Shown here piece after piece: positions 20,535 through 45,832 of a stretch of 64,000 bases of DNA (position 1 is its first letter; every line of letters starts with the position of its first letter). Source of the stretch: Bacteroidaceae bacterium (GTDB lineage Bacteria; Bacteroidota; Bacteroidia; Bacteroidales; Bacteroidaceae); the NCBI GenBank assembly GCA_017448965.1, contig JAFSKK010000061.1:89738-153737 (forward strand), read 5' to 3'. Both the position numbers and the translations under genes were made by a program. The notes beneath the pieces are model-generated. The model was not told where the DNA came from. It saw nothing but the letters and a program-made list of their open reading frames with translations, and searched no databases.

Positions 20535-21566
20535 TCAGATGAGGTCTTTTACAAGGTTAAACATTTCTTTGGCTCCTGCATAGGCATCGGCACTCTTGCC
20601 ACCGTCGCCTGACACGTCGGGGCTTTCTGCGCCGTCACCTTTCTTCAGGTTCTCTACTTCTGACTGCAAGGTTTCAACCTGAGCCTTCAAACCTTTCTCG
20701 GAATCAGAAAGTGCTTTCAGGCGGTCTTCGACCTGCTGCAGTTGCTCGGAAGTGAGGGCGACCACGCCGTCCTTCTCTTCGAGGTCATCCACAGCAAGAA
20801 GGCTGCAGATGAGAGCAAAAGCAAGTTTCTTCATTGTGATAGGGGTATTTGAGGTTGTTGCGTTGGTTTCTTCTGCTGAAGATTCTTCGGAGGCTGACGC
20901 TCCATCAGCGGCAGGGACAGAGTCTGGCACATTCTCCAACACAGCCTTGCCACGCTCGATGAGGACGGATGAATCAACCAGTTCGGGAACTGGATAGCCA
21001 GAAGCGGCAAAGAAGTTGCGAACTTCACCCGTCACGGCAGGAGCACTGCCCTCTTCCAGAATCTCATCTATGAGACCGAGTTCCTTACACTGCTCAGCCG
21101 TCAGCCATTTGGCATCTACGAGTACCTTTCTGATTTCGTCGGCGGTCTTCCCTGCACGCTTGGCATACAGGTCACACAACACTTCATCCACTTTCTCCAG
21201 CGTGTCCTTGTCGCGCTGAAGGTCAGCGATGAGACGGGCGAGGTCTTCCTTGTTCATCTGAGCCCACTCGAAAACAAAGGTGCTCGACGGATGAATGAGC
21301 ATGAGTGCCTGACGACTCATGCACACCTTCTTCGCGCCCATGGCGATGACAGTTGCAGCGCTGGCGGTCATGCCGAAAATGTAAACGGTCACATCCCCGT
21401 GGTCGAGAAACTGCTGGCGGATGTCAAGGGCATCAGGAACACTGCCGCCCAAGGAGTTGATGCGGACAGCACAGGGCTTGCCATGATACTTGGCCATCAG
21501 ACTCTTGATGTAACGTGCCGAATAAGGCCAGCCGATGGTACTGTCGATGTCAATGTTGTACTTCAT
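20535..21566 (-). CDS. ClpP-like prohead protease with C-terminal scaffold domain
   Basis: 343 residues from the ATG at 21566; the frame upstream begins only with GTG. The first ~190 residues are a ClpP-fold protease: INSLGGSV near 36-43, nucleophile Ser69 in GMTASAATVI, His92 in LMLIHPSS. The rest is an acidic linker (~205-245) and a coiled scaffold (~245-343, KALSDSEKGLKAQVETLQSE). An internal in-frame ATG at 20834 (MKKLAFALICSLL) could start a separate ~99-residue scaffold. The stop of the spanin gene overlaps its start (ATGA). It processes the capsid during maturation. Confidence 0.85.
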   Translation of the reverse strand: MKYNIDIDSTIGWPYSARYIKSLMAKYHGKPCAVRINSLGGSVPDALDIRQQFLDHGDVTVYIFGMTASAATVIAMGAKKVCMSRQALMLIHPSSTFVFEWAQMNKEDLARLIADLQRDKDTLEKVDEVLCDLYAKRAGKTADEIRKVLVDAKWLTAEQCKELGLIDEILEEGSAPAVTGEVRNFFAASGYPVPELVDSSVLIERGKAVLENVPDSVPAADGASASEESSAEETNATTSNTPITMKKLAFALICSLLAVDDLEEKDGVVALTSEQLQQVEDRLKALSDSEKGLKAQVETLQSEVENLKKGDGAESPDVSGDGGKSADAYAGAKEMFNLVKDLI

Positions 21567-22012
21567 AGGAACTTTTTTAATTTCTGCCACAAAGTTAATC
21601 TTTTACCTATTATATATAAAAGACACACGAAAACGGGAAAAACAATGGACACCCAAAGAAGCCATGGAGGACGGCTCCGCTCCTTCTCACGCCAAACGGC
21701 TTCATGCTCCATGCTGCGGTGAAGCGTGTCGGTGCTCTCCACATAGAGGGTGTCATGGACTGTACTCTCACGCTCACGCCACATAGTGCGGTCACGGTAG
21801 ATGGTCACGGTGTCGCCCTGACGCTGCACCTCGATGTAGATGCTGTCTTTCTCACGCAACGTGTCGGTGCGGAGGGTGACATGATGGACATCGTTCGTCC
21901 GATGGATGAAGACGGTGTCGGTGCGCACCTCTCGCTCCAGCTGACGGTGGGAACGGCAGGAGGCGGCAAGAAGGGAAAGTAGGACAAGAAGAAAGATCAG
22001 GTGCTTTTCCAT
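21563..22012 (-). CDS. Putative unimolecular spanin (lipoprotein with C-terminal TM)
   Basis: 149 residues from the ATG at 22012. N-terminal signal peptide with lipobox LLAASC (Cys ~18), then a charged, beta-alternating ectodomain (~20-115), a C-terminal transmembrane helix (WLLWVSIVFPVFVCLLYII, ~118-137) and a basic tail. An outer-membrane lipid anchor plus an inner-membrane helix in one chain is the layout of u-spanins such as phage T1 gp11, which fuse the two membranes at lysis. It lies next to the holin. Function is inferred from topology. Confidence 0.6.
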   Translation of the reverse strand: MEKHLIFLLVLLSLLAASCRSHRQLEREVRTDTVFIHRTNDVHHVTLRTDTLREKDSIYIEVQRQGDTVTIYRDRTMWRERESTVHDTLYVESTDTLHRSMEHEAVWREKERSRPPWLLWVSIVFPVFVCLLYIIGKRLTLWQKLKKFL

Positions 22013-22793: not shown

Positions 22794-23186
22794 TTACTCT
22801 GTGAGCCATTTGTCCACAAGGGCAATGGCTGCCTCTCTGTCCACTTTGAACTTTGCCCATTCACTGGCATAGTCCGAAGCTTGGGGACAGTCAGGATCTT
22901 CACGCACAAGAAGCTGATGGGTCTTGATGGCATCCTCCTTGCTTTGACTGTAAGTGGAACGCAGAACACCGTTGATGAGAGCATCACGGCTGATTTCTGA
23001 CACTTCCAACAAAGTGCCTCCATCTGCCTCAGGACCCGTGTAGGCATAAGCCGTGACGGGACGAGGCATCGGGTCTCCATCGTCTGGTACAAAATCCTCA
23101 ATGACTTCTTCGTTGAGGTACGCAATGACATGATCCTTGTCATAAGGAGTGAAAGTCATCGGCTGAAGATAAATTTTTCTGTTCAT
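22794..23186 (-). CDS. Hypothetical protein downstream of the DGR reverse transcriptase
   Basis: 130 residues, acidic, mixed beta then helical C terminus (YASEWAKFKVDREAAIAL). It is the last gene of the cassette, 35 bp after the RT stop and just before a terminator. It does not look like Avd, the four-helix accessory protein of many DGRs: it has an initial beta part, and Avd is usually basic and fully helical. Function unknown. It may be a tail protein partner of the DGR target. Confidence 0.55.
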   Translation of the reverse strand: MNRKIYLQPMTFTPYDKDHVIAYLNEEVIEDFVPDDGDPMPRPVTAYAYTGPEADGGTLLEVSEISRDALINGVLRSTYSQSKEDAIKTHQLLVREDPDCPQASDYASEWAKFKVDREAAIALVDKWLTE

Positions 23187-23221
23187 ATATTTAAGTTTTT
23201 ATACCTTCAGCCGAAAGGGCT

Positions 23222-24766
23222 TCAGGTGAATTTGTAGAATCTCTTGCGCTGCTTGTTGAAGAACTCCTTGATGACAGTGGGTGAAGGCAAGTCCTCACGG
23301 GTGAACTCGTTCTGAGCCTGGTCTATCATCACCTTGGAACCTGAGAAGGTGTAATGCTCAGCATCCTCCCACACAAAAACGGGGTCACCCTCAGGATCTT
23401 CTGGAACTGTCACTTGCCTGGCATGGCGGTAACGGAATGAGAGGCACTGCTCTGGAGTGCCGTCTGACTTCTTCTCGATGACGGAATCCTCTATCTTGTA
23501 ATCGAGCAACTGAATCCAATACTTGTTCTCATCGTCGCCTGAATGGCAGACAAGGGACTCGATGCTCTCACGCTGGGAGAACTCCATGCCATCGAAAGGA
23601 ACACGATGGCGATTCTTCTTAATTTTCTTTCCTAATCTTTCCATATGTAACTTTTTTAGTAAATGTTTGGTGTCTGCATGGATAGCAAAGCCTACACGGC
23701 TCGCACACTTGAGACGAATGTCACGCTCTGAGTAGCCCTTCTTCCTCAGCTTCGCCACCTGACGGCACAAGGCTTGCTTGTTGCGCTTGCGGAGACGGAC
23801 ATGATCATGGTAAATCACATAGCCACAAATGTCATTGCCTGTATAGGTGGGGTGGACGTTCCAACTCTTGTTGACATAGACAAAATAATCACGAGCCAAA
23901 ATCATGATTCCCAGCTCCGTCATCAGATGAAGGAAAACACAATCGCCATGTTTGATGGTGATGTTGTCTGCAAAACGGCTGTAGTGCCGAAGACCCTCGG
24001 AAACATACCTCCTGAATTTCTCATTCAGATAGGCTACACCCTTGGAAACCTCTGCCGCCTGAGCTGGAGTGCGACAGGTCATGAAACAATCCGTGACGTA
24101 ACGACTCTGCCAATAATGGAAACGCTCAGGATCTTTGCCGATATCGAAACAGCGGAGGGCAAGACGGTCGAAGGAAGCCAGATATAACCCGGACAGAAGC
24201 TGGGAGAGTTTCACACCAAGCACCAGACCCGGATTGAAACTGTCAATAAACTCATCTAAGAAATACAGCAGCTTCGGGTCTTTCAACTTCTCACGGATGC
24301 ACCGCTTCATCAAATCGTGATGGATAAAGAGAAAGTAATGGTGGATGTCAAGTTGCACCAAGTAATACACCTCTTCCTGACTGCACCGCCACATCTCTGA
24401 CTGCTCCTGACGGAGATAAAAATGGGTGCCCTTCTTAGGAACACAGGCTGGACTACGGTGGTAGAAAGAATCCATCAGCCATGGCTCAACAGGAAGCATG
24501 GCTGACCACTGAATGACATGCGTGGCTACAGTGGTCTTGTCAACCACACGGTGCTTGGGTTCAAAAACTTCTTTGGGAACATAAGGAGGAGTGACCCATG
24601 AACAAGTGTCATAGGCATTCATCAGACACTCCAGACGATTGTCCAAGTCCACCTCAAAACGCTGAATGGACTCGCGACGGTGCTTGCCGTCTGCGAATCC
24701 ATCAAAGCCCTGAACGAAATTGTCTCTCGTGACAATCTTCTCTGTAAAGTGACCTTTACGATGCAT
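23222..24766 (-). CDS. DGR reverse transcriptase
   Basis: 514 residues. The RT palm is visible: catalytic Asp140 in VQLDIHHYF, the DGR-diagnostic GVKLSQ (184-189; GxxxSQ instead of the QGxxxSP of group II introns), and the active-site box FADN (265-268), where most RTs have YxDD. The ~200-residue C-terminal part is basic, then acidic, and may bind the template RNA. It is expected to reverse-transcribe TR RNA with errors at adenines and to supply cDNA for retrohoming into VR. It lies 171 bp after TR on the same strand. The Asn at the second catalytic position is odd; either this lineage uses it or the enzyme is impaired. Confidence 0.9.
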   Translation of the reverse strand: MHRKGHFTEKIVTRDNFVQGFDGFADGKHRRESIQRFEVDLDNRLECLMNAYDTCSWVTPPYVPKEVFEPKHRVVDKTTVATHVIQWSAMLPVEPWLMDSFYHRSPACVPKKGTHFYLRQEQSEMWRCSQEEVYYLVQLDIHHYFLFIHHDLMKRCIREKLKDPKLLYFLDEFIDSFNPGLVLGVKLSQLLSGLYLASFDRLALRCFDIGKDPERFHYWQSRYVTDCFMTCRTPAQAAEVSKGVAYLNEKFRRYVSEGLRHYSRFADNITIKHGDCVFLHLMTELGIMILARDYFVYVNKSWNVHPTYTGNDICGYVIYHDHVRLRKRNKQALCRQVAKLRKKGYSERDIRLKCASRVGFAIHADTKHLLKKLHMERLGKKIKKNRHRVPFDGMEFSQRESIESLVCHSGDDENKYWIQLLDYKIEDSVIEKKSDGTPEQCLSFRYRHARQVTVPEDPEGDPVFVWEDAEHYTFSGSKVMIDQAQNEFTREDLPSPTVIKEFFNKQRKRFYKFT

Positions 24767-24936
24767 CGGTGTCTTGCGGTGTCTTTCGGATTGTCTGCTT
24801 GTTTGCTTTCCCTGCCTTCAACCGTGCCCGTTTGGCACGTCTACCAGCACTTCTTTCTTGTTCATTTTCCACCATGGGGTGCGGTCTCGTTCCGTTTTGA
24901 GCACGGCAAGCTGACACTGAACCGTGCGGAAAAGTT

Positions 24937-25062
24937 GAGAGGCGAGCCCGTGTTCACATTGGTCGTCGAGACACCATTGTTCACATTGACGTACTCAGGA
25001 CCATAATTGCCACCATTGTTAGCATTGCCACCAACATACGGCACGCGCAAACCCGAAGCGGC
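24937..25062 (-). repeat. DGR template repeat (TR)
   Basis: 126 bp, homologous to VR (25315-25442). Read on the minus strand it carries 25 adenines; 9 of them differ in VR (5 A to T, 3 A to G, 1 A to C), and no non-adenine position differs. An AAC/AAT-rich core (codons for Asn in the VR frame) is the usual design of DGR templates. It lacks 2 nt relative to VR near 24976-24980. It lies between the target gene and the RT, outside any real gene. Confidence 0.92.
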
Positions 25063-25314
25063 TCGATGAGGGAACGACAACCGAGATTTTAAAAATCCGC
25101 TGCGAAGGTAAGACTTTTTTTCAAAAGTTACACGGAAATCTGTCAAAGAACGACTTTTTATTTTTATTTTCGACCCCTTACGGGGTATTTTTGATGCGGC
25201 ACAATGTGCCTTGGGTTCTTTTGTGTTCTATCGAACACTTTGTTCACTCAGGCAACAATGGGATCATGCGGCCACCAAGATGGGCGTTGTATCCCAATCT
25301 TCCTCTGATTCGCA
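25063..25314 (-). promoter_or_regulatory. DGR spacer with hairpins downstream of VR
   Basis: Between VR and TR. Read on the minus strand it holds three small hairpins: GTGTTC-GATA-GAACAC (25238-25223), a perfect GGCACA-n-TGTGCC palindrome (25210-25198), and ACCCC-GTAA-GGGGT (25186-25173) with a GNRA-type loop. In the Bordetella DGR a hairpin just after VR is needed for homing; here they start about 75 bp from the VR end. A TACCTTCG box near 25110 could be a weak promoter for TR RNA. Confidence 0.45.
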
Positions 25315-25442
25315 GAGAGGCGAGCCCGCGCTCACAAAGGTCGTCGAGACACCAAAGTGCTCACATAGACGTACTCAGGACCATAATTGCCACCATAGTT
25401 AGCATAGCCACCAACATACGGCACGCGCAAACCCGAAGCGGC
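25315..25442 (-). repeat. DGR variable repeat (VR)
   Basis: 128 bp at the 3' end of the target gene; it runs 17 bp past the stop codon (25332). It matches TR except for adenine-directed changes and a 2-nt insertion. At protein level three TR asparagine codons read Tyr in VR (GGYANYGG.. EYVYV). The distal end (CGGGCTCGCCTCTC on the minus strand, about 25328-25315) is unmutated and GC-rich, as expected of the IMH (initiation of mutagenic homing) region. Confidence 0.92.
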
Positions 25443-26690
25443 ATTATCATTGTAGAAGGCATCTGCATAGTAGGTGCTCTCCGTGGCTGGAGTCCCCGTA
25501 ACAGTTGGCTTGTGGCAGAGATTCTGCATGGACAGCTGCTGGATGAATTCCCACTGGCTGGCAACGGCAGCCGCTGGAACCTGAGCGACCTTGATAAGAC
25601 CTGACAGGCTGCTCATGTTATAGGAACTGTGCAATCTGGGCACAACATAGACATCGCCAGCCCCACCAGCAACTTTATTGATGAGACAGCCACGCTCCCA
25701 GCGACCAAGGTAGCCAAAGAAGTTTTTCAGACCAAAGAATACAGGAATGTTGAAGGTCTTGGCGACAGTGCCAGATTCATTCAGCACACTGTAGGAAGAA
25801 AGACCTACACCATCAGCCAGATCCACACCGACCGACGTGGGCAAGAACGGCTGCGTACTGCCCATGACGGATCCCCAGCTGCTGCCCCAACCTGTGACAC
25901 CGGCACCAAAACCGCCTTGATAAAGCCCATTACTGTCCTTGTTGGCGTTATAGGCTGCTTGGGCATTACGGGTGCCCATGATGATACGCAGAAGAATGCC
26001 TAAGACGGCAGGGAAGGTGTACCAATAGGCTTCCCAGCCTTCACCTTTCTTTCGGGCATAGCTGCCAAAGGTGGAGGCATCAAGATTCGTGGCGGCACGT
26101 CCTAAAAGGGTGTTGTAGGCACTGTCCTTGGAGGAATCATTGTCACCACCACGATATCGGGCTGCTTCGCTGATAACCGAAACCAACTCGTTGTTCTCAC
26201 GGTCAACAACAGATACACCCAAAGCACTGGTGCTGGCAACTGGAATCACATAATTCCATCGCCCTGGTATGGGCTTCAGAGAAGCTGCTTCATAATAATA
26301 GTTGCCTTCTATCCACCAGGCATAATACCATTTGGTTCCCCATCCCCACATGTAATCACCCATGGTGCCGTCAAGGGCTGCCGCCTCACCCGTCGCAAAC
26401 TTGTGATGATTGGTGGGGTCAAGCTTACGCCGTCCATGGTTCTTATCGACAAGATAACAACCCAACCCCAATAAGGAGGGAAGGTTGCGGAGATAGTCGA
26501 TGTTGCCCACGGCTTCACCTACCGAAGTGCTTTTCGTCATGTCCCAACGACGACAGGCATAACCTTCATTGGTGACGAAACTGAGAGGAATGAAACCGAA
26601 CTTGTTGCCGGATGTGCTGAAACCTACAACTTTGTCTTGCGATGTGATCGCTGACAAAGATTCAAGAGTTGCCAAATCAATTTTTTCCAT
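25332..26690 (-). CDS. DGR target: variable C-type-lectin-like tail protein
   Basis: 452 residues from the ATG at 26690 (an upstream TTG two codons earlier is less likely). The N-terminal ~100 residues look like a fibre-attachment domain, the middle is Gly/Trp/Tyr-rich, and the C-terminal ~100 residues end in the variable segment ASGLRVPYVGGYANYGGNY, the pattern of DGR targets with a C-type-lectin (CLec) fold. The VR residues would form the binding face. It follows two tail genes and is probably displayed at the tail tip for receptor switching. The last residues (VSRRPL) depend on the 2-nt indel relative to TR; without it the protein would run 28 residues to a stop at 25264. Confidence 0.85.
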   Translation of the reverse strand: MEKIDLATLESLSAITSQDKVVGFSTSGNKFGFIPLSFVTNEGYACRRWDMTKSTSVGEAVGNIDYLRNLPSLLGLGCYLVDKNHGRRKLDPTNHHKFATGEAAALDGTMGDYMWGWGTKWYYAWWIEGNYYYEAASLKPIPGRWNYVIPVASTSALGVSVVDRENNELVSVISEAARYRGGDNDSSKDSAYNTLLGRAATNLDASTFGSYARKKGEGWEAYWYTFPAVLGILLRIIMGTRNAQAAYNANKDSNGLYQGGFGAGVTGWGSSWGSVMGSTQPFLPTSVGVDLADGVGLSSYSVLNESGTVAKTFNIPVFFGLKNFFGYLGRWERGCLINKVAGGAGDVYVVPRLHSSYNMSSLSGLIKVAQVPAAAVASQWEFIQQLSMQNLCHKPTVTGTPATESTYYADAFYNDNAASGLRVPYVGGYANYGGNYGPEYVYVSTLVSRRPL

Positions 26691-26692
26691 AA

Positions 26693-26935
26693 TCAAAGAT
26701 ATATTTTCATGTTGTCAATCTCGAAAAGAGTGATGTCACGGAACTCACGTATCTCACCACTTGGAAACAGCTTGACACGGTGAGTGCCGCCACGTTTGAA
26801 ACCTCCTATACAGACAGCCTGACTGTAGAGAAGGATGTCTCCAGTGGACAGTTTCCACAACCTCAGGCGATGGGGCTGTCTGTCTTCCAATAGGTGCAGG
26901 GCATCATTCCTATGTATCACAAGGGGACGTTTCAT
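26693..26935 (-). CDS. Small phage protein before the DGR target
   Basis: 80 residues, basic and beta-rich (DILLYSQAVCIGGFKRGGTH). It overlaps the upstream gene by one base and ends 2 bp before the DGR target start, so all three are coupled. Not recognised; may be a tail-assembly helper or a chaperone of the variable protein. Confidence 0.55.
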   Translation of the reverse strand: MKRPLVIHRNDALHLLEDRQPHRLRLWKLSTGDILLYSQAVCIGGFKRGGTHRVKLFPSGEIREFRDITLFEIDNMKIYL

Positions 26936-29013: not shown

Positions 29014-30606
29014 TCAGCTATTGCTCGTGGTGCGGAGCACATAGGAGGTCTGGGGGAACTTTACACAGCCTATATAGAGGGTGTCGAAGGCATCGCTGCC
29101 GTCTGTGCGACCTTCCAAACGGTCTTCCTCAGTCTCGGCGAGCTTCTCACCCCGCTTGTCTTTCTTGCCATTATAGACTCCTGCTGTCTGGACGCTGACC
29201 AGCAGATCCTCATTGTTCTCACGGTTGAAGAAGGGCATGAGGGTGCCGCGACCCGAGAAGCCCCTGTTGATGAGCAGATGCTTCTCCAGATGCCCCATGG
29301 TGCGACCGATATAGACAGGTCTGACTGTCCACCCCAGCTGCTGAAGCTTATGGACGATGACCCACTGGAAGTCTTCTTTGTTGACAGCATAGTTGGAACC
29401 AAGGGCTGTGTTGTCGTAGTAGAAGATGACTTCACGGGGACGGAAGTGGTGGTAGTAGGTGTCGAAGTCTTCACAGAGGGCTTCCAGCTTACGCTCATAC
29501 TTAACCCAGAAAGACTTGACCACGTTGAGACGACCCAGGTCGTGGTCTGGCTGGCCGACGACGAGCCAGTTGATGTTGGCATTGAAGTCGAAGGCAATGC
29601 AGAGTGGCTGATGCTGAAGGTCGCCGTCCATGCGGCAGTCCTGAAGCTTCAGCTGCTCGAAGTCATAGCCGAGGCTGTCAAGGTAGTGGAAATCGGTACT
29701 GGAATAGATGTGCCGCGGACGCATGGAACTGTAGAAGCCATCTTTCAGCAAGCCGATGCGACGGCAGAGGATGGAGGTCTGGAAGGTGAGAGGGGGAAGG
29801 TCACGCTTCATCTTTTTGATGAACTCGATGCCAAGCACCTGAAGGTTGACCAAAGAGGAGTATTCCTTGTAGAAGATGGCACGTCGACGAAGACTGGAGA
29901 GGGTTGCTTCAATGTCGGCCAGTTCCTTCAGATGATAAGAGGAGAGCGATGCACCTTTCTGGCGGATCTCCCACTGACGGCAAAGCAGACCCTGTATGAG
30001 GTCGATGAGCTCGGTGTCCATCTTGTCGGCATAGTTGAGGAACCAGGATCCTTTCTTGGTGACGGGCATATCGCTGGCGATGAGCATGCCGTGATGCCAC
30101 GGACAATGGTCAAACTCCTTTTGCTGGCCACGGTTGGCTGGAAAGGTCTCATCCTTCAGCTGATCAAAGTCTATGTACTTGGCTTCGTCGATGTCAAGCC
30201 AGTCAAAGCTTTTGGAGTTGGAGGTGCCGGCACGATCCTGAGAAACGATGAAGCCAATGGCACCCGTGTAGAAGCTGATGACATTTTCCCAGTTCTCGGG
30301 AGGAATGAGGGGAGAAGGCCAGTGGAGCGACTTGGGGGGACGATGACCGATGCACCAGTGGACATCCCGCTTGTAACCCCAACGCTCCAGATGCTCCAAC
30401 ATGGAGGGAAGGGTGTTGGAGAGGGCGCGTTTGGTGTTGGCTGCAGGGAAGGCACCTGTGGAGCCTGGCATGGCCTGTATGTTGCGGAGGGTGTAGGCTG
30501 CATGTACCACGCCCTTGCCAATGCCACGACCGCCAACAACGATGGTGTCCTTAGCTCCAATAGCCATCACCTCCAGCTGCATGTCGTTGAAATATTCCTC
30601 TCTCAT
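29014..30606 (-). CDS. Terminase large subunit
   Basis: 530 residues. ATPase: Walker A GGRGIGKG (~25-32), Walker B FDWLDIDE (134-141) with the catalytic Glu. Nuclease: Asp in CIAFDFNANINW (~355) and DGSDAFDTLYIG near the C terminus. It powers packaging and cuts the concatemer. It overlaps the 172-aa gene upstream by 4 bp. The portal-like and other packaging-type genes are ~20 kb away at 7.7-10.4 kb. Confidence 0.92.
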   Translation of the reverse strand: MREEYFNDMQLEVMAIGAKDTIVVGGRGIGKGVVHAAYTLRNIQAMPGSTGAFPAANTKRALSNTLPSMLEHLERWGYKRDVHWCIGHRPPKSLHWPSPLIPPENWENVISFYTGAIGFIVSQDRAGTSNSKSFDWLDIDEAKYIDFDQLKDETFPANRGQQKEFDHCPWHHGMLIASDMPVTKKGSWFLNYADKMDTELIDLIQGLLCRQWEIRQKGASLSSYHLKELADIEATLSSLRRRAIFYKEYSSLVNLQVLGIEFIKKMKRDLPPLTFQTSILCRRIGLLKDGFYSSMRPRHIYSSTDFHYLDSLGYDFEQLKLQDCRMDGDLQHQPLCIAFDFNANINWLVVGQPDHDLGRLNVVKSFWVKYERKLEALCEDFDTYYHHFRPREVIFYYDNTALGSNYAVNKEDFQWVIVHKLQQLGWTVRPVYIGRTMGHLEKHLLINRGFSGRGTLMPFFNRENNEDLLVSVQTAGVYNGKKDKRGEKLAETEEDRLEGRTDGSDAFDTLYIGCVKFPQTSYVLRTTSNS

Positions 30607-32161: not shown

Positions 32162-32352
32162 ACAATTGTGATTTAGCAATGAAAAAACTGCATTACGTGC
32201 TGCTAAGTTCACAATTGCTGAAACTCCGGGGCGTTACCGCTTGCCGACACGATGCAGTTATACTACGTTATTATAATATGTGTGGGTACAAAAAAGGCTG
32301 ACATGGAGTCAGCGGCTTCGTACCGCAACTGTGATTTAGCGGTACAAAGGTA
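32162..32352 (-). promoter_or_regulatory. Promoter and structured leader with attenuator
   Basis: TACCTTTG box (32352-32345) starts a leader on the minus strand. A1 (CGCTAAATCACAGTTGCGG, from ~32342) is at the 5' end. An intrinsic terminator (stem GCTGAC/GTCAGC, 32312-32297, then TTTTTT) follows. A' (32217-32202) is complementary to A1 and to A2 (32177-32163), which ends 1 nt before the start codon. The layout is the same as at 5195-5459, with a different sequence in the variable part. Confidence 0.55.
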
Positions 32353-38085: not shown

Positions 38086-38201
38086 GGACAAATAATAGAC
38101 TGAGCCCCCAAAAAGGAACAAAAACGGTAAGTATAAATGTCTATAAATCAGGAAAGGAGGAATAAACAAAAATTGCAGTTGTCCCCTCCCCCGCTACAAA
38201 A

Positions 38202-45605: not shown

Positions 45606-45613
45606 TATCTTTG
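45606..45613 (+). promoter_or_regulatory. Promoter of the btuB arm
   Basis: TATCTTTG on the + strand, directly before the riboswitch leader. Confidence 0.65.
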
Positions 45614-45616
45614 CCA

Positions 45617-45772
45617 CCGAAATTGGTAATCGAGCATATCGATGCAAGGGAATCCAGTGAGAATCTGGAGCTGTACCTGCAGCTGTAATCTCCTTTTGTC
45701 AACGTCTGTTCAACAAAGCCACTGAGGAATCGGGAAGGCGAGCAGACAGGGGAAAGCCAGAATACCTGCCAA
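45617..45772 (+). promoter_or_regulatory. Cobalamin riboswitch
   Basis: Elements of the cobalamin (B12) riboswitch in order: AAGGGAATCCAGTGAGAATCTGG-like P3 region (quoted in part: GGAATCCAGTG), GCTGTACCTGCAGCTGTAA, GCCACTGAGGAATCGGGAAG (one base short of 21, ~45717), and the B12 box GAAAGCCAGAATACCTGCC (~45752-45770). It precedes btuB by ~60 nt. Cobalamin binding should lower expression of the receptor operon. Confidence 0.92.
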
Positions 45773-45832
45773 AACACCAAAGAAGAAAGAGGTTTACATG
45801 CACAGGACTATGCATGACAACACCAACGCTTT

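Follow-up and report, generated by a model that had tools for sequence, protein, structure and literature searches.

The stretch of DNA analysed here, called the window below, comprises 64,000 nucleotides (64 kb) of a Bacteroidaceae bacterium (assembly GCA_017448965.1, contig JAFSKK010000061.1, positions 89,738 to 153,737). Its positions 22794-26935 hold what we read, with high confidence, as a phage-borne diversity-generating retroelement (DGR) in which no Avd was found. An earlier note, made from the sequence alone, had described here a template repeat (TR) and a variable repeat (VR) on the same strand with nine substitutions, all at template adenines, a reverse transcriptase (RT) with a DGR-type GxxxSQ motif near the TR, and the VR at the 3' end of a target gene; each of these observations is confirmed. 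Along the minus strand the cassette runs from the target gene, with the VR at its end, through a hairpin, the TR, the RT-17 RNA and the RT to a 130-aa gene:

25332-26696, minus strand: DGR target gene (tail protein, PHROG 5302); its open reading frame (ORF) stops inside the VR, at a frame break.
25315-25442, minus strand: VR, 128 nt, differing from the TR by nine substitutions, each at an adenine of the TR, and by 2 nt in length.
25223-25238, minus strand: candidate target-site hairpin with a 6-bp stem and a GATA loop, 76 nt after the VR end.
24937-25062, minus strand: TR, 126 nt, the sole perfect copy found in the genome.
24791-24886, minus strand: RT-17 RNA (RF03020), the spacer between TR and RT, a full-length match of 69.7 bits.
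23222-24766, minus strand: RT, 514 aa, with LGVKLSQ in region 4 and FADN in motif C.
23222-23644, minus strand: roughly 140 aa at the C terminus of the RT, an extension that the clade conserves and that matched no known family.
22794-23186, minus strand: 130-aa gene after the RT; in the related locus L085 it directly follows the target, with no RT between.

The same range also covers an 80-aa ORF (26693-26935).

The substitutions between TR and VR, seven A to T and two A to G, fall on 9 of the 25 template adenines and on none of the 101 other bases. If the nine were placed anywhere, the chance of all of them hitting adenines would be about 1.2e-7. The repeats are 252 nt apart, both on the minus strand. 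No third copy was found in the window, and neither a further TR/VR copy nor a second VR in the draft genome at an E-value of 0.01. Pooled over 23 related loci, TR and VR differ at 191 of 407 template adenines and at 5 of 1811 other positions, the non-A counts being lower bounds as local alignments trim the ends. The pooled spectrum is 82 A to G, 57 A to T and 52 A to C. Two loci with no VR on the contig (L004, L006) and L005, the same contig as L010, were left out of this count. In eight further loci 97 of 98 substitutions are at adenines.

The RT has no match in Pfam; it matches PHROG 1423, "Reverse transcriptase", with an E-value of 1.2e-49. The best solved match of its profile is 8ub7, "Reverse transcriptase" (1.3e-28), which we take to be the BPP-1 enzyme, and a group II RT is matched at 1.5e-11. 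A tblastn search with the RT gave 73 phage records, every one below 60% identity. Among the 30 matches listed are BPP-1 brt, crAss-like phages and Hankyphage p00, over about the first 370-390 residues, and MT835875, where 98% of the query is covered at 47% identity.

In a tree of 43 RT rows, 17 rows with F-x-D-N in motif C, the window RT among them, stand together (100/100), and with 14 other DGR RTs they form one group of 31 rows (100/100). The nearest lineage consists of two Hankyphage-type RTs (99/98). Outside the DGR clade are six group II rows and six other RT rows: a retron-like RT, an RT-Cas1, two Drt3a and two unassigned rows labelled "abi". Outgroup labels are above the curated cut-offs for group II (L037, L038, L040, L043), Cas1 (L044) and Drt3a (L054, L056); L049 is retron-like below the cut-off, and L041 and L060 were called group II from their QGGVISP motif alone. 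The earlier note had called the system a DGR, had pointed to Hankyphage and had proposed a comparison of the RT with DGR-RT families; the tree agrees with it on the first two. Region 4 of the window RT has the DGR form (I/V/L)GxxxSQ, and neither the QGxxxSP of group II introns and retrons nor a grouping with those RTs was found for it. Three related RTs (L014, L024, L026) carry AQ in place of SQ.

Both aspartates of motif C are usually regarded as invariant among reverse transcriptases. Negative-strand RNA virus polymerases have GDN in this motif. Here, all 33 clade records, the window among them, have F-x-D-N (29 FADN, three FMDN and one FVDN); these are 25 records and eight found later, some of them near-identical to one another. 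The tree's 14 remaining DGR RTs carry YxDD, and according to an excerpt of PMC3521204 both aspartates are 100% conserved in a DGR data set, with Y or F preceding. In the tree, the window RT belongs to a monophyletic clade with the second motif-C aspartate replaced by asparagine. Nothing on FADN in DGR reverse transcriptases was found in the open-licence papers searched. The more distant relatives L086, L087 and L004, which are outside the tree, carry FMDN, not FADN, and therefore the asparagine may be older than the alanine that precedes it. From its last residues, the C-terminal extension had seemed by eye akin to that of the Hankyphage RT; this was rejected, as hhalign, with only two rows on the Hankyphage side, gave a probability of 0.4% over 12 columns.

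As a natural experiment, the VRs of nine pairs of virus contigs were compared (L014/L026, window/L003 and L005/L010 were left out). For five of these pairs the TR is identical over 140 nt and the VR has no difference at a non-A position. L021 and L023 are identical in the RT (510/510 aa), the TR (140 nt) and the target before the VR (880/880 nt), and their VRs differ at 15 of 23 template adenines and 0 of 98 other positions. The VRs of L018 and L019 differ at 11 of 23 adenines and 0 of 96 others, with the target identical (880/880 nt) and the RT as well (440/440 aa; L019 is cut and holds 440 aa). For L016/L017 the numbers are 12 of 23 and 0 of 99, with 513/513 residues of the RT and 866/879 nt of the target identical. 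L015 has the same TR as both of these; it differs from L016 at 15 of 23 adenines (RT 518/546) and from L017 at 14 of 23 (RT 486/513), and from each at 0 of 99 others. Variation at A positions with the TR constant, which the earlier note had suggested looking for, is thus seen in related contigs. As near-identical contigs differ in the VR at adenines alone, the F-x-D-N enzymes appear to work, or to have worked very recently. Because of this evidence for activity we read FADN as a variant: the clade is a new active-site variant of the DGR, and the DGR itself is of a known kind.

The RT-17 RNA scores well above its Rfam cut-off (40.4 bits). It is found at the same place, at or above the cut-off, in 20 of 25 related loci; L016, L017, L021, L023 and L024 are below it, L021 only just (39.1 vs 40.4 bits). 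The structure of the spacer was assessed by covariation instead of a free-energy z-score. When the Rfam structure is laid on 22 aligned spacers, which include the below-cut-off L016, L017, L021 and L024 but not L023, 94% of the cells are paired. Two-sided changes occur in 10 of 12 pairs, with 44 such cells vs 14.0 in shuffles, and none of 500 shuffles was equally high on both pairing and two-sided changes. If the structure is slid along the alignment the pairing falls to 27-41%. The RNA between TR and RT is thus a structured one, as in other DGRs.

The same place is taken by the Rfam Phage_DGR RNA in BPP-1 and by RT-3 in Hankyphage p00. RT-3 lies upstream of Hankyphage-type RTs at L029 2322-2471 and L057 2353-2532 (141.6 and 127.7 bits), and it too looks like a DGR spacer RNA. 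Rfam lists RT-17 as an sRNA; the sequence is no different here, where it is placed in a DGR. The RT-n RNAs reportedly come from a NAR 2017 paper, which may already place RT-17 in DGRs. Within the open-licence papers searched, no mention of RT-17 or RF03020 was found. For BPP-1, part of PMC12875486 describes a folded spacer that brings in the bRT-Avd complex and primes cDNA. By analogy, RT-17 would do a similar job, as an RNA bound by the RT, and its position gives the Rfam family a likely role as the scaffold of a template RNA.

The target gene matches PHROG 5302, "tail protein", as do all 18 aligned members of its family, L085 included. By sequence it has no match in Pfam or the PDB; of the "lectin-like tail gene" in the earlier note, the tail part is supported, and a lectin fold may be present but gained no support from these searches. 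An hhalign comparison with Mtd gave no support for kinship, nor did a comparison with the tail protein of another DGR phage. We infer that the target protein binds a receptor.

The VR occupies the 3' end of the target ORF. Because of its 2-nt length difference (128 vs 126 nt) the frame is shifted within the VR and the ORF ends there, the last 31 or so residues of the relative L003 giving way to nine different ones. In the other 22 target ORFs listed, from 21 distinct contigs (L005 equals L010), the frame stays open into a conserved tail. With its target out of frame, the assembled copy therefore probably has a defective tail protein at present, and its TR, spacer RNA and RT look intact. That this phage retargets its tail tip, as previously proposed, gains its support from the relatives and not from the assembled copy itself. 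It may be that DGR copying can break its own target while an intact TR retains the information.

There is a real possibility, although we consider it the less probable account, that a mixed VR population led to an error of assembly or sequencing and so to an apparent frame break. The source genome is in draft form (74 contigs, completeness 86%), a heterogeneous VR is hard to assemble, and the 21 other distinct targets are all in frame. However, both halves of the VR fit the TR with A-only changes, and a chimera of two real variants, fused where they are alike, would on its own keep the length.

The search for an Avd was made with the model NF033474, which finds Avd in BPP-1, VP58.5 and BalMu-1. 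Pfam PF05635 was dropped for this purpose, as it misses the Avd of BPP-1 itself. NF033474 matches none of the 12 virus contigs of the clade, several of which may be fragments; in the own genome it gives only a sub-threshold match on another contig, and in Hankyphage p00 none. DGRs without Avd are known, and about a quarter of DGRs have no Avd homologue according to an excerpt of PMC7290462.

The 130-aa gene could be thought to be the Avd of the clade. It is similar to Avd in size and comes after the RT in 21 of the 25 related loci (L019 and L025 stop short of it; L001 and L002 were left out of the neighbourhood counts). A search with it gave 20 loci, 19 of which have the RT before it (L069 only the RT's end), and in the phage collection it is present in 1 of 50,697 records, the same record that holds the RT. 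There is also a precedent, as a small ORF near the Hankyphage RT has been proposed as an Avd counterpart by its isoelectric point and mass (PMC6199706, in excerpt). Nevertheless we regard this role as unlikely. The gene has no match to NF033474, and L021 (as well as L023, identical in DNA there) has another gene, with DUF4376, directly after the RT. The gene after the Hankyphage p00 RT also matches DUF4376, a domain that fits a tail companion. In L085 (2548-4447) the target family ends 25 nt before the 130-aa gene, with no TR or RT between; no RT was found in this 8.4-kb locus, the rest of the contig not being searched. From this layout, so far one example, the 130-aa gene looks as if it goes with the target, and the TR, RNA and RT like a removable insert between them. 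Being a relative without the DGR, L085 offers a natural control by which to judge the contribution of the retroelement.

A hairpin with a GNNA loop and a perfect stem of 6-7 bp is found in 13 of 28 VR-TR regions, 76-138 nt after the VR (L021 and L023 were left out, having no anchor, and the region of L087 is empty). In 200 single-letter shuffles the mean number was 0.12 and the maximum 2. Among relatives the stems change on both sides and there are eight distinct stem-loop types, several rows being near copies. Most loops are GTCA; strict GRNA is found only in the window and L007. In phage DGRs, according to part of PMC3240598, the stems have 7-10 bp and GRNA loops and lie 4-34 bp after the VR. 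The hairpin after the VR is a likely mark of the target site. Another hairpin, directly at the VR end (stem CCTCTGCG; L015-L017, L027), is partly forced by the conserved coding sequence and was not used.

The cassette sits in a prophage of about 42.3 kb in tRNA-Met, bounded on the right by:

38183-38197, plus strand: right copy of the 15-bp attachment core; the left copy, formed by the 3' end of tRNA-Met (contig C11, 85663-85677), is outside the window.

An integrase gene (PF00589) lies at the left of the prophage, outside the window. In three of the seven same-genus loci examined (L097, L103, L104) the attachment site is empty and the flanks meet with an exact 15-bp overlap; in the other four no match to the right flank was found. 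The "prophage tail module" suggested earlier is thus a prophage, by its attachment repeats, integrase and empty site, but the DGR is outside the tail block, between a terminase-like gene (29014-30606; a weak match to PHROG 2, E-value 0.018) and a head protease gene (20535-21590). In L003 the DGR precedes what by eye is a tape-measure-like gene. The RT is rare in the host family, being found with an E-value of 1e-30 or better in 2 of the 301 genomes searched, its own included.

Other features were seen nearby. At 32184-32259 on the minus strand the prophage has a match of 50 bits to c4-2 RNA (Rfam RF02944), an antisense RNA of the phage c4 type. Beyond the right end of the prophage are a cobalamin-pathway-type gene (PF02277, 39198-40256) and a cobalamin riboswitch (45607-45787). 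The same genome holds a second, separate DGR (L055, G000:C42), whose RT has YMDD. Its VR-like repeat (564-673) ends an ORF that by eye resembles an FGE-sulfatase-type protein, the TR-like repeat is at 2318-2427, and of the 10 differences between them 9 fall on adenines of the copy that follows the RT.

In the mechanism that we propose, a transcript holding the TR and the structured RT-17 spacer would be bound by the RT. The RT would reverse-transcribe the TR, placing random bases at template adenines, and the resulting cDNA would take the place of the VR at the 3' end of the target gene, where the hairpin after the VR would be the target mark. This picture rests on sequence comparison, namely on the TR/VR pattern, the kinship of the RT, the covariation of the spacer RNA, the A-only changes in near-identical relatives and the prophage insertion.

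Several observations weigh against it. Motif C departs from the YxDD (or FxDD) of DGR enzymes, the target frame is broken in the window copy, unique in this among 22 distinct targets, the Avd model finds nothing in 12 virus contigs of the clade, the trimmed ends of the pooled alignments may hide non-A differences, and the window spacer, when folded alone, is about as stable as its shuffles (z 0.38). In addition, in the four contig pairs with differing TRs the VR differs at 4-11 of 98-99 non-A positions, as well as at 12-16 of 22-23 adenines; these non-A differences are about as many as the differences between the TRs.

Taken together, the odd motif C and the broken target could mean that the DGR of the lysogen is decaying, with a weakened RT and VR differences that are relics. 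We consider this quite unlikely. F-x-D-N is common to the whole clade, close relatives with an identical TR differ freely in the VR and at adenines alone, the RT frame, TR and spacer RNA of the window are intact, and the frame break is within the stretch that retrohoming rewrites. That the RT is of a group II intron, retron or defence system and the TR/VR pair a chance repeat, for which weak, sub-threshold group II matches (2.8e-10) and equally modest hits of defence RT models could be cited, has hardly any chance of being right, in view of the tree of 43 RT rows, the best solved match 8ub7, the A-only substitutions and the synteny in relatives.

If the phage-borne DGR is accepted, a further step suggests itself, which we put forward tentatively and at somewhat less than even odds. 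The second motif-C aspartate would have been lost in a whole clade of working DGR RTs and would thus be dispensable for mutagenic retrohoming; an Avd-less RT with a conserved C-terminal domain would read the RT-17 RNA directly. The domain may replace Avd, and the asparagine may go with another use of metal or another error profile. What makes the clade of interest is that it apparently works without this aspartate, with its activity visible in near-identical phage contigs. So small a system, an RT with one RNA in which no Avd was found, would lend itself as a simple model of mutagenesis specific to adenines.

Three known systems allow a comparison. The scan for TR/VR pairs in the outgroups recovered the annotated TR and VR of BPP-1 (L034), with 18 of 22 substitutions at adenines, and a pair in BalMu-1 (L035) with 10 of 11; short pairs were found in L029 and L031 and nothing convincing in L028, L030, L032, L033 and L036. 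The Avd-less lineage-3 DGRs of crAss-like phages have the same target-TR-RT order without avd, according to part of PMC7290462, and L028, L030 and L036 show sub-threshold RT-17 matches upstream of the RT. However, their RTs have YADD and are on another branch of the tree. The RT gene of L028 (phage cr52_1, 2501-3526) yields no long ORF with table 11; reading TAG as an amino acid opens its frame.

BPP-1 shares the logic of TR and VR, the order target-TR-spacer-RT, a structured spacer (Rfam Phage_DGR) and, in the excerpt of PMC3240598, a hairpin after the VR, comparable with the candidate one here. It differs in having Avd and YMDD in motif C, and the hairpin distance is 4-34 bp in the phage DGRs of that paper and 76-138 nt here.

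Hankyphage (Bacteroides phage p00) has the nearest RT lineage in the tree, an RNA family match between a TR/VR-like repeat and the RT, no NF033474 match, an RT extended at the C terminus and a gene directly after the RT. In contrast to the window, its motif C is YCDD and its spacer RNA RT-3, not FADN and RT-17, the C-terminal extensions are not demonstrably related, and an Avd-like small ORF has been proposed there (PMC6199706, in excerpt). Hankyphage is a Mu-like transposable phage (parts of PMC6199706 and PMC12135933), whereas the prophage of the window is inserted in a tRNA gene.

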